Virus record (IMG/VR): IMGVR_UViG_3300021335_000099
Location: 1 to 22,613 of that record
Origin: a virus
Reading direction: 5' to 3' (one strand)
DNA: 22,613 nt
Part shown: in pieces, positions 3,163 to 6,527 of the stretch
Layout: every line of letters starts with the position of its first letter
Numbering within the stretch: the stretch's first letter is position 1
Translations under genes and position numbers: made by a program
The notes under the pieces: generated by a model
Told to the model about the DNA's origin: nothing
The model's input: only the letters and a program-made list of their open reading frames with translations
Database searches by the model: none

Positions 3163-3490
3163 TCGCTCGCTCAATGACTATCGGTGGCAAGTCTTGCGCC
3201 TCTGGCTCTGGTTGATCGCTCTGGCCTAGCCAGTTCTTCCCTAGCCATACCAACATCGTGGAGTTCCCATCCATTGCAGAGGTAAATTGACGCCTTCTGA
3301 GGCTCATTTTGCCCCCGCTCGCCTTTTGCTTAAAATAATCCGAAAAACCAACCCCTCGCTCTCTCTTGCAGGCTGCGTTCAGGGTGTCGTAATCAATGCC
3401 AAGGATACCAGCCTGCTCCTCTCCAGTGCAGTGGTACTCACACATTCTATCCACTTGATCCCAGTCTATTTCAATCAAAGGTCTGCTCAT
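3149..3490 (-). CDS. terS: Terminase small subunit / DNA-packaging protein
   Basis: 113 residues. The N-terminal part (EIDWDQVDRMCEYHCTGEEQAGILGIDYDTLNAAC) reads as a helix-turn-helix of the kind used by small terminases to recognise packaging sites. The C-terminal half holds MLVWLGKNWLGQSDQPE, a motif I know from small phage DNA-packaging proteins. Its position immediately before the large subunit supports the call. The ATG at 3490 overlaps the preceding stop as ATGA. A generic HTH protein is the alternative but is less likely given order and length. Confidence 0.82.
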   Translation of the reverse strand: MSRPLIEIDWDQVDRMCEYHCTGEEQAGILGIDYDTLNAACKRERGVGFSDYFKQKASGGKMSLRRRQFTSAMDGNSTMLVWLGKNWLGQSDQPEPEAQDLPPIVIERASEAN

Positions 3491-3858
3491 TTCTTCGTTG
3501 CTCGTCTAACTGCTTTGCGCTCTGCCTCAGTATACGAAGCCTTGCCTTTGCCCCCTTTGCTTGCTTTGTTCTTTGCTCTCGAACCCGCTGCTTTCTGTCC
3601 AGACGAGAGAGAATCCCGCGCACCTTTCGGCAGATACCTGCCTTGCCCCTTCTCCCCAACATAATCCCAGTCTTGATCCGTCCATCGGCTCAGTGATGTT
3701 TCTTTCTTTGGCCCTTCGTACTTACCACCCATCTGCTTGTAGTAGTTAACTGCGAGTTGTGCAGCCCTGCCAGACCATTTGCCACCCATCTTACGCATGG
3801 CTTTAGCTTTGGCCCTCTCCCAGATCTCTGGGTTCTTTCTCTTCGCCGTATCTGCCAT
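3487..3858 (-). CDS. DUF5872-like basic protein
   Basis: 123 residues, strongly basic. The N-terminal half (RKNPEIWERAKAKAMRKMGGKWSGRAAQLAVNYYK) is helical. It is followed by SLSRWTDQDWDYVGEKGQ and GRYLPKGARDSL, which matches my memory of the DUF5872 signature seen in phage and some large-virus proteins. The C-terminal 40 residues are a K/R/S/A-rich disordered tail. It overlaps the small terminase by ATGA and the upstream gene by TGATG. Function is unknown; its charge and place in the packaging block suggest nucleic-acid binding (inference). Confidence 0.72.
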   Translation of the reverse strand: MADTAKRKNPEIWERAKAKAMRKMGGKWSGRAAQLAVNYYKQMGGKYEGPKKETSLSRWTDQDWDYVGEKGQGRYLPKGARDSLSSGQKAAGSRAKNKASKGGKGKASYTEAERKAVRRATKK

Positions 3859-4079
3859 CAGTCGTTCAGGCTTGTTTTGGTTCTGTCTGGGGTGTCATGT
3901 CGCTCAATCATGCTTTCAAGGGCGCGGATCTTTCGCTCTGGCGGCAGTTCGTGGTAGTAGAAAAGCCGTCTGCTAGTCGCGTTGTGAGTTGCGCCAGTAT
4001 GCACTTCACCATTCGGCATTGTGTGAACTTGCCCGGCGTAGATCGTGCCATCACGGTTGAACAGTAAAACTCCTCTCAT
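3858..4079 (-). CDS. Hypothetical small phage protein
   Basis: 73 residues. The N-terminal half is probably beta-rich (GVLLFNRDGTIYAGQVH, PNGEVHTGATHN), and the C-terminal half is a charged helix (PERKIRALESMIERHD). I do not recognise a named domain, although short proteins starting with a similar MRGVL-like strand and a repeated T-G-H pattern occur in marine phages. It lies between the holin and the DUF5872-like gene with four-base overlaps on both sides, so it is almost surely translated as part of the late operon. Confidence 0.65.
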   Translation of the reverse strand: MRGVLLFNRDGTIYAGQVHTMPNGEVHTGATHNATSRRLFYYHELPPERKIRALESMIERHDTPDRTKTSLND

Positions 4080-4480
4080 TTGGACACCTGTTTGGTCTTT
4101 TCGTAGGTTCTCATCGCGCCCAAGCCAAGCATACCCATCAAGACAGGCATCATCGTGTCTAGTGCGACCAGTGGGATAGTCACGTCAATCTCCATCAGGG
4201 CTAGAATAAAGTTGGCAAATGGTATGACCATGAAGTTGCCAGCCATCCCTAACACGCACACCCAGCCGACTGCTGGCCTCCATCCTGCAACAAAAAGGCT
4301 CCTGCTTGCAGCCTCGACCTTGTTAACCTCTAGCTGGGCCTTGGCGTTCTCATTGGCGTGACGCTCTGCCATCGTCGCTATCTCATGCGCCAGCTTTGCC
4401 TTCTGGTCTTTGTCTTCGATGAACTCAGACAGTAAGCCAGTGACAGGCCCGACAAGCTCTTTCACAATGCCTAAACTCAT
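4076..4480 (-). CDS. Holin of the 3-TM (GTA-type) family
   Basis: 134 residues. An amphipathic N-terminal helix and a charged coiled region (IEDKDQKAKLAHEIATMAERHANENAKAQLEVNKVEA) lead to RSLFVAGWRPAVGWVCVLGMAG, the hallmark of the GTA holin / Holin_3TM family (PF11351). Hydrophobic segments follow (FMVIPFANFILALMEI, PLVALDTMMPVLMGMLGLGAM), then a short basic tail. Holins form pores in the inner membrane to time lysis. The gene is flanked by four-base overlaps with the DUF5675 gene upstream and the hypothetical gene downstream. Confidence 0.88.
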   Translation of the reverse strand: MSLGIVKELVGPVTGLLSEFIEDKDQKAKLAHEIATMAERHANENAKAQLEVNKVEAASRSLFVAGWRPAVGWVCVLGMAGNFMVIPFANFILALMEIDVTIPLVALDTMMPVLMGMLGLGAMRTYEKTKQVSK

Positions 4481-5303: not shown

Positions 5304-5432
5304 ATGTCTAACCATTACAATGAAACGCTGCTGGAACAATTGTTCGAGGAAGCTCTCGATCTAGGGATGCCTGATGAAGAGGCAGAGCAATACGCCGTTG
5401 AACGAGCCGAGCAGCTGGGAGATCCCTCATGA
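5304..5432 (+). CDS. Small acidic hypothetical protein (42 aa)
   Basis: ATG at 5304 to TGA at 5430-5432. The predicted product is acidic and helical, containing ETLLEQLFEEALDLGMPDEE and ending EQLGDPS. Its stop overlaps the ATG of the next gene by ATGA, the coupling seen throughout this genome, which is the main support for it. The SD (AAGG about 10 bases upstream) is weak. No function is assigned. Confidence 0.55.
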   Translation: MSNHYNETLLEQLFEEALDLGMPDEEAEQYAVERAEQLGDPS

Positions 5433-5596
5433 AACTACGCTACCCACTCGCCCTGCTGTTAATTGTCGGTTTTTTGATCGCTGGTAATAACGACTATGAA
5501 AGCGAATTGATGGAGGAGCGACAGTACTTAGAACGATTCTGTGATGGTGTCCACGGCGACTATCTTAACTTGGAGCCTACTTGTGCGGGTTCTTGA
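5429..5596 (+). CDS. Small single-TM membrane protein (55 aa)
   Basis: ATG at 5429 (ATGA overlap with the gene before) to TGA at 5594-5596. KLR is followed by a hydrophobic helix PLALLLIVGFLIAG, then a short polar domain with two cysteines (LERFCDGVHGDY, EPTCAG). This looks like an N-terminally anchored protein with a small periplasmic tail. There is no lipobox cysteine. Small phage proteins with a comparable Y-C-x-x-V...Y pattern are frequent and uncharacterised. Its 3' end contains the start of the methyltransferase gene. Confidence 0.6.
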   Translation: MKLRYPLALLLIVGFLIAGNNDYESELMEERQYLERFCDGVHGDYLNLEPTCAGS

Positions 5597-6527
5597 TCTA
5601 TTCTCTGGCATAGGTGGATTCTCCATCGGCTTGGAATCAGCAGGAATGGAAACTGTGGCTTTCTGCGAGCAAAACACCTTCTGTCAGAAGATACTAGGTC
5701 AGCATTGGCCCACCCTCCCCATACATTCAGACATCACGGAGTTAAACGGATATGAGTACCGAGGATCAGTTGAGCTTGTTTGCGGGGGATTCCCTTGTCA
5801 GCCATTCAGTGTCGCCGGGAAGCAGCTCGGCGCAGAAGATGACAGAGCACTCTGGCCGGAAATGCTGCGAGTCATACGCGAAGTGGCTCCCAGATGGGTC
5901 ATTGGCGAGAATGTTTCTGGAATCATCCCGATGGAACTCGACAATGTGCTATCTGACTTGGAAGGGGAAGGCTACACCTGCTGGACGTTTGTACTTCCAG
6001 CTTGCTCCGTCGACGCCCACCATAGGCGAGACAGAGTCTGGGTTGTGGCGCACTCCAGCAGCGACATCTGGAGGAACACCCAAAGCTCTTTTGGAAGGTC
6101 AGACAACAAGGCCGAGCGGACACAAGATACAGATCAGACTTCAGGATCAGGCCAGAATGTGGCCGACTCCAACGACCAGCGACGCGAATCAGGCATATAT
6201 GAAGAACGACCACGACCTAAAGAAAGGCAACTTGCGCGGAGTAGTCAAGATGTGGCCGACACCGCAAGCCAGCGACAACAAGAATCGGGGACACATGGGG
6301 ATGCCATCGGTGAAAAGACGGAAGGAAAAAGGGAAGCAGCTAAACCTTTCGATGGTAGCCAGCCATGTCTCTGGGAGCCTGAACCCAACGTGGGTCGAGT
6401 GGCTAATGGGGTTCCCAACAGATCACACAGACTTAAAGCTCTCGGAAACGCCGTAGTTCCACCCCTCGTTGCAGAGATTGGTCGAATCGTTATGGAGTTT
6501 GACCAGCAGTCTTTGCAACCAACTTGA
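5583..6527 (+). CDS. dcm: DNA (cytosine-5) methyltransferase
   Basis: About 314 residues from GTG 5583. It shows C5-methyltransferase motifs: I VLDLFSGIGG (3-12), IV GGFPCQPFS with catalytic Cys near 72, VI GENV (108-111), VIII RRDRVWVVA (148-156) and X ALGNAVVPPL (286-295). It methylates cytosine in DNA, probably protecting phage DNA from restriction; no partner nuclease is nearby. Residues about 159-275, where the target-recognition domain belongs, are unusually polar and low-complexity (repeated VAD, Q, R, S, E), and a second frame through this region looks protein-coding. GGAG at 5572-5575 sets the start; an in-frame ATG at 5544 lacks this and lies deeper in the preceding gene. Confidence 0.93.
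   Translation: MRVLDLFSGIGGFSIGLESAGMETVAFCEQNTFCQKILGQHWPTLPIHSDITELNGYEYRGSVELVCGGFPCQPFSVAGKQLGAEDDRALWPEMLRVIREVAPRWVIGENVSGIIPMELDNVLSDLEGEGYTCWTFVLPACSVDAHHRRDRVWVVAHSSSDIWRNTQSSFGRSDNKAERTQDTDQTSGSGQNVADSNDQRRESGIYEERPRPKERQLARSSQDVADTASQRQQESGTHGDAIGEKTEGKREAAKPFDGSQPCLWEPEPNVGRVANGVPNRSHRLKALGNAVVPPLVAEIGRIVMEFDQQSLQPT
5752..6456 (+). CDS. Nested overlapping gene: WPTP-motif methyltransferase-associated protein
   Basis: A 234-residue frame lies entirely inside the methyltransferase gene, shifted by +1. It looks like a genuine protein: MSTEDQLSLFAGD start, SLARMFLESSRWNSTMCYLT, KATPAGRLYFQLAPSTP, two MWPTP repeats (MWPTPTTSDA, MWPTPQASDN) and a C-terminal LNPTWVEWLMGFPTDHTDL. I recognise this combination from phage proteins found with or annotated as C5-methyltransferases. 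GGAG lies about 11 bases before the ATG. The two MWPTP motifs are the shifted reading of VADSN and VADTA in the other frame. The product could act as a specificity or partner subunit (inference); a chance ORF is the alternative but fits poorly. Confidence 0.68.
   Translation: MSTEDQLSLFAGDSLVSHSVSPGSSSAQKMTEHSGRKCCESYAKWLPDGSLARMFLESSRWNSTMCYLTWKGKATPAGRLYFQLAPSTPTIGETESGLWRTPAATSGGTPKALLEGQTTRPSGHKIQIRLQDQARMWPTPTTSDANQAYMKNDHDLKKGNLRGVVKMWPTPQASDNKNRGHMGMPSVKRRKEKGKQLNLSMVASHVSGSLNPTWVEWLMGFPTDHTDLKLSETP

Follow-up and report, generated by a model that had tools for sequence, protein, structure and literature searches.

A phage cytosine methyltransferase gene encloses a second selected gene in its +1 frame, probably the other half of a two-subunit enzyme

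Two overlapping genes in a phage methyltransferase locus

The window analyzed here, the whole 22,613-nucleotide stretch of viral DNA (positions 1-22613), is a fragment of a tailed phage with terminase, portal, NinG-like, Erf-like recombinase and tail fibre genes. On its + strand, flanked by genes of the − strand, lies a methyltransferase pair: a C5-cytosine methyltransferase reading frame (alpha) and a +1-frame gene (beta), the latter fully enclosed by the methyltransferase ORF (5541/5583-6527). Two in-frame GTG codons could begin alpha. The upstream one at 5541 gives an ORF of 5541-6527 and a 328-aa reading; the one at 5583 appears to be the most natural start, judging from the spacing of the GGAG before it and from the usual beginning of the protein, 'xRVLDLFSGIGG'. 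The features of the locus are listed below in order of position.

5429-5596, + strand: small ORF of 55 aa, read from the sequence; its last 14 bases are shared with the start of alpha
5572-5575, + strand: GGAG, 7 nt 5′ of the alpha GTG at 5583
5583-6527, + strand: alpha, C5-cytosine methyltransferase catalytic subunit, GTG start, 314 aa
5595-5618, + strand: alpha motif I, DLFSGIGG
5738-5741, + strand: GGAG, Shine-Dalgarno-like, 10 nt 5′ of the beta ATG
5752-6456, + strand: beta, +1-frame gene nested in alpha, ATG to TAG, 234 aa
5793-5801, + strand: alpha motif IV, PCQ, including the catalytic cysteine; invariant in 59 aligned alphas
6024-6041, + strand: alpha motif VIII, RRDRVW
6046-6378, + strand: variable part of beta, proposed to recognize the target; it contains three W(P/R)TP units (W at 6046, 6160 and 6253)
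6102-6377, + strand: alpha low-complexity stretch, residues 174-265, predicted to be unfolded, at the position of a recognition domain
6372-6461, + strand: alpha WEPEPNVGRV... and motif X (LGNAVVP), overlying the beta motif-IX segment
6379-6417, + strand: beta motif-IX-like segment, LNPTWVEWLMGFP

The methyltransferase motifs are divided between the two frames

Alpha is a single chain carrying motifs I, IV (PCQ), VI (ENV), VIII and X, as judged from Pfam, motif coordinates and invariant columns. It matches Pfam DNA_methylase with an E-value of 1e-44 over residues 16-228 of the 328-aa reading, the match ending at position 217 of the 324 in the profile, and residues W264, E267, P268, R272, G288 and N289 are invariant or nearly so among aligned alphas. 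Structures were modelled from input alignments without the annotated-phage loci. Over about 163 residues, the alpha model resembles M.HhaI (Foldseek E-value of 2e-13). It is unfolded at residues 174-265 (pLDDT <50) and 270-279, the positions at which a recognition domain and motif IX would be expected. When these two elements were sought between motifs VIII and X, the motif IX pattern was found in none of 227 alphas. The low complexity of the methyltransferase frame between motifs VIII and X, pointed out in an earlier note on this DNA, agrees with a stretch that is predicted to be unfolded.

Beta matches PHROG 1008, 'DNA methyltransferase', with an E-value of 6e-35, and has no match in Pfam or NCBIfam. 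Its first 95 residues overlap alpha motifs IV-VIII and are themselves constrained. Among homologues the middle of the protein is between 8 and 306 residues long and contains 0-6 W.TP-type units; among close relatives it differs in length and content between near-identical beta flanks, as would be expected if it were an exchangeable recognition region. In the window, the VAD repeats of alpha (6159 and 6252) correspond exactly to WPTP repeats of beta (6160 and 6253), just as the earlier note had read them. The C-terminal end of beta (LNPxWVEWLMGFP) resembles C5 motif IX, for example RRLTPKECQKLQGFP of a canonical enzyme from one of the same genomes that carry the pair, and the pattern occurs in 213 of 227 betas. 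HHalign comparison of beta with canonical C5 methyltransferases likewise found its best placement at motif IX, at a non-significant P of about 0.06. The beta profile had no relevant match among solved structures, and the model of beta alone (pLDDT of 59, no fold match) speaks neither for nor against the proposed role.

The nested pair is widespread among phages and bacteria

Homologous loci were collected from IMG/VR with beta (L007-L086), from IMG/VR with an alpha alignment alone (L088-L167) and from GTDB species genomes with beta (L168-L247); because most loci were picked by likeness to alpha or beta, their frequencies are not unbiased. The matches span Bacillota, Pseudomonadota, Bacteroidota, Acidobacteria and others. 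All 80 loci fetched with alpha alone encode a +1-frame beta, as do 226 of 227 full-length alphas overall. The exception is L247, in which the nested frame ends early and a separate complete beta lies downstream at 3429-4226. At L142 the first alpha encloses a nested beta, the tally having counted the second of two tandem copies; with both sequences read directly, L247 stands as the single real exception. An intact alpha over an interrupted +1 frame, one of the two observations that the earlier note had named as refuting its proposal, was seen once, at a locus with a second beta. At six further loci, the longest +1 ORF lacks the strict motif IX pattern, yet matches the beta profile over most of its length.

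A few loci depart from the simple arrangement. L142 (133-1955) holds tandem alpha-beta pairs, of which the second alpha is without motifs I-IV while its beta is open. In L019, L163 and L230 the pair is broken by an in-frame stop or an apparent single indel, and these are either decaying copies or sequencing errors. Nine viral contigs (L286-L294, including the contigs of L100 and L084) have a 6-base insertion in alpha motif IV (TAGCTG, TGACTG or TAACTG) that yields GGFP-stop-L-CQP and leaves beta open. Each of the three kinds of stop codon is found at one and the same site, and the insertion could be read either as the footprint of a homing element or as a stop-start split of alpha. In two of these contigs, L288 and L289, the alpha frame encodes an HNH-endonuclease-like CQKCHHxWHK after motif III and just upstream of motif IV; a hidden HNH in a phage methylase has been described (PMC11855218).

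We also fetched C5 methyltransferase loci from 17 genomes carrying the nested pair. Enzymes with a full-length Pfam match have no nested beta (L259 gave a weak partial match), and enzymes whose Pfam match stops near position 163-230 have one; because the 17 genomes were chosen for containing beta, only the absence of beta from the canonical enzymes is an independent observation. The same split, with PCQ and motif X in one frame and a IX-like segment in the +1 frame, was found in very divergent enzymes of Escherichia phage ESSI2, Edwardsiella phage eiAU-183, Klebsiella phage YX3973, Xanthomonas phage PhiXhv-5, Pseudomonas phage Haboob and Sulfitobacter phage phiGT1.

In a few loci the overlap appears to have been dissolved

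At L076 and L196, alpha ends directly after motif VIII and the downstream alpha frame is full of stops. The beta ORF of these loci runs past the recognition region and motif IX into HW(I/L)PEPDIPRVA...KCLGNAVVPQ, which includes motif X; these fused beta-plus-motif-X ORFs had no match in Pfam. The +2 frame of the motif IX DNA reads a worn GxMADGFxxRLDG, which from its sequence is likely a remnant of the GRVADGVPxRxDR of alpha. From this ORF layout and the worn +2 remnant, the overlap appears to have been unrolled at both loci with both protein segments retained.

These loci bear on the possibility that beta, although expressed and under selection, is no methyltransferase subunit but some other phage protein, such as a regulator or an anti-restriction protein, that arose inside alpha. 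Such an origin would suit the lack of significant sequence or fold likeness between beta and known methyltransferase domains. However, the IX-like segment and the variable region of beta fall at the very places where alpha is without motif IX and a recognition domain, beta accompanies alpha at every examined locus, including the dissolved overlaps of L247, L076 and L196, and beta is fused to motif X in L076 and L196. We consequently consider a separate function improbable.

Both frames are under selection from the beta start to the beta stop

Selection acts on both frames over exactly the span of beta. Third-base identity at four-fold codons was measured in 194 non-redundant alphas against a background of within-sequence codon permutation. 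It was 0.31 on the 5′ side of beta (expected 0.28), 0.53 inside beta over motifs IV-VIII and 0.50 beyond them, and 0.32 on the 3′ side of the beta stop (expected 0.27); the rise and fall of synonymous conservation in alpha thus mark the start and stop of beta. Substitution rates in 75 independent pairs gave the same picture. Substitutions per site at alpha codon positions 1/2/3 were.148/.099/.418 upstream of beta and.188/.119/.411 after it, and.360/.193/.183 between motifs VIII and IX, which is the pattern of the beta frame: the fastest position there is the first of alpha and the third of beta. Over motifs IV-VIII, alpha retains half of its usual third-position excess, and between VIII and IX the bias is inverted. 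In this last interval, amino-acid identity in the same pairs is 0.54 for alpha versus 0.72 for beta. A Shine-Dalgarno-like core is present 5′ of the beta start in 160 of 189 homologues (85%), compared with 24% and 39% at two control positions handled identically.

These results bear on how beta might be translated. If a programmed frameshift fused the first part of alpha to the second half of beta, the product would be a single chain, and alpha motif VIII and the beta recognition region are indeed consecutive along the DNA. However, the +1 constraint begins at the beta start codon and not after motif VIII, that start is preceded by a conserved Shine-Dalgarno sequence, motif X would require a second shift, and the L247 beta is a separate gene. 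Frameshift fusion was rejected as very unlikely on these grounds, and the onset of constraint at the beta start codon together with the separate beta of L247 leads us to favor independent starts.

The significance of the +1 ORF itself was assessed by permuting the synonymous codons of the window alpha, which gave a +1 ORF of such length 35 times in 20,000 trials. Against a beta profile built without the window sequence, the real frame scored 296.8 bits, compared with 83.7±15.9 bits (maximum 127.5) in 500 permutations, a difference of ∼13 standard deviations. Although permuted alphas still reach ∼84 bits, since alpha is highly conserved over motifs IV-VIII and part of any shifted frame will therefore look conserved, the idea that the ORF is a chance, untranslated by-product of alpha conservation and codon use can be dismissed, because synonymous conservation is raised only inside beta, the real frame far exceeds the permutations, and between motifs VIII and IX the substitution pattern follows beta codon positions and conservation is higher in beta than in alpha. 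The 234-residue nested protein that the earlier note had proposed at 5752-6456 is confirmed by constraint, permutation and homologues alike, and the extra constraint in its frame that the note had asked about is far above the expectation from alpha alone.

Discussion

We conclude, with a probability of roughly 0.86, that alpha and beta are the two subunits of a C5 methyltransferase, alpha being catalytic and beta contributing target recognition and motif IX. The same DNA would give rise to two proteins from independent translation starts. Alpha, from GTG 5583, would form the large catalytic domain, with motifs I-VIII and X but neither recognition domain nor motif IX. Beta, from ATG 5752 with its own Shine-Dalgarno sequence, would draw its N-terminal part from the DNA of alpha motifs IV-VIII and continue with a variable, modular region of WPTP units and the C-terminal motif-IX-like segment. 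Joining alpha as a heterodimer, beta would complete the small domain and read the target sequence, and alpha would bind AdoMet and methylate the flipped cytosine. Swapping the beta middle region would then provide a new target, and the role in the phage would most likely be modification of phage DNA against host restriction. We infer that the subunits assemble and act jointly, and likewise infer their sequence specificity and biological role.

A two-part enzyme had been suggested in the earlier note, with the nested product standing in for a missing target-recognition domain. The two-part idea is probably right and is strengthened by the presence in beta of the motif-IX-like segment that alpha lacks and by a two-polypeptide precedent, M.EcoHK31I (PMC3404938). 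The suggestion about target recognition was too narrow, because beta apparently supplies motif IX as well.

The closest precedent is M.EcoHK31I, with M.EaeI, of a YGGCCR restriction-modification system. The small gene of M.EcoHK31I is nested in another frame of its large gene. By published description, with which we compared the pair, the larger of its two polypeptides has motifs I-VIII and X and motif IX is found only in the smaller (PMC3404938), and the enzyme has been termed naturally split (PMC3439449). The pair described here is similar in having two polypeptides with a IX-like segment only in the smaller (213/227 betas, 0/227 alphas), its profile likeness to canonical motif IX being weak. 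It differs in that the recognition domain of M.EcoHK31I is assigned, as a prediction, to the large subunit (PMC3404938), whereas here the corresponding alpha stretch is poorly conserved and predicted to be unfolded and the variable region is in beta, and in that the pair is phage- or prophage-borne and the neighbouring genes that we inspected included no restriction enzyme. A search for M.EcoHK31I among plasmids by way of divergent betas led to a K. aerogenes match that, on inspection, had phage-gene neighbours and no annotated restriction enzyme.

Other split and modular enzymes share some of these properties. M.AquI is split within the variable region and its small subunit carries motifs IX and X (PMC3404938). 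As in M.AquI, a second polypeptide here would complete the recognition region, and L076 and L196, where alpha stops after motif VIII and the second protein has motifs IX and X, resemble it further; unlike M.AquI, the window pair has motif X in alpha and its genes are nested. The alpha catalytic domain is like that of M.HhaI and other single-chain C5 methyltransferases, in which, unlike in alpha, motif IX and the recognition domain share one frame with the catalytic domain. The Bacillus phages SPR, phi3T and SPbeta encode multispecific C5 methyltransferases that are single polypeptides. Like these, the pair is phage-borne and has modular, in its case proposed, recognition regions between conserved flanks, and the WPTP units of beta may be analogous to their recognition modules.

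Hundreds of phages and bacteria retain the double reading, and public annotations consequently overlook or misname, in most cases, one half of it. Pairs of Paenibacillus larvae phages (e.g., BLOOM_56 and BLOOM_57 of phage Bloom) are the same nested pair, with both ORFs annotated as DNA cytosine methyltransferase; we found no statement on a two-subunit enzyme in the P. larvae phage genome paper (PMC6070908), and our literature search found no description of the nested pair in phages. Other phage records annotate only alpha, or only the beta frame. In Acidovorax phage Alfacinha1 (L252:903-2073), for example, the beta frame is annotated as a cytosine methyltransferase and the PCQ-bearing alpha frame is unannotated; this phage was checked as a candidate single-chain version since the annotated frame matched beta, and was rejected as such, being again a nested pair. 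The record of E. coli strain EC20 (L295:789-1958) lists two incomplete methyltransferase pseudogenes at this locus, even though no stop interrupts alpha from PCQ to motif X and the other frame holds an open beta.

This kind of enzyme was already known from a restriction-modification system, and the new elements are its wide distribution, the placement of a variable region in beta and the derivatives with an unrolled overlap. We lean slightly towards the broader view that the pair represents an ancient, very widespread and obligately dual-coded group of phage methyltransferases, in which a whole specificity subunit (an overprinted N-terminal part, exchangeable modules and motif IX) is encoded in the +1 frame of the catalytic gene, in which the number of WPTP modules may set the number of targets, and from which some lineages have been unrolled.

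Long same-strand overlaps with strong selection on both frames are rare and hard to prove. The present overlap recurs in hundreds of loci across many phyla, and natural un-overlapped versions serve as controls. The nested pair explains the apparent absence of a recognition domain in many phage 'DNA cytosine methyltransferases'. In public records, one of the two halves of the enzyme is absent, wrongly named or listed as a pseudogene. A further prediction is that the annotated gene, synthesized by itself with changed codons, would yield no active enzyme. The pair offers a clear model of how overprinting can build an enzyme subunit.
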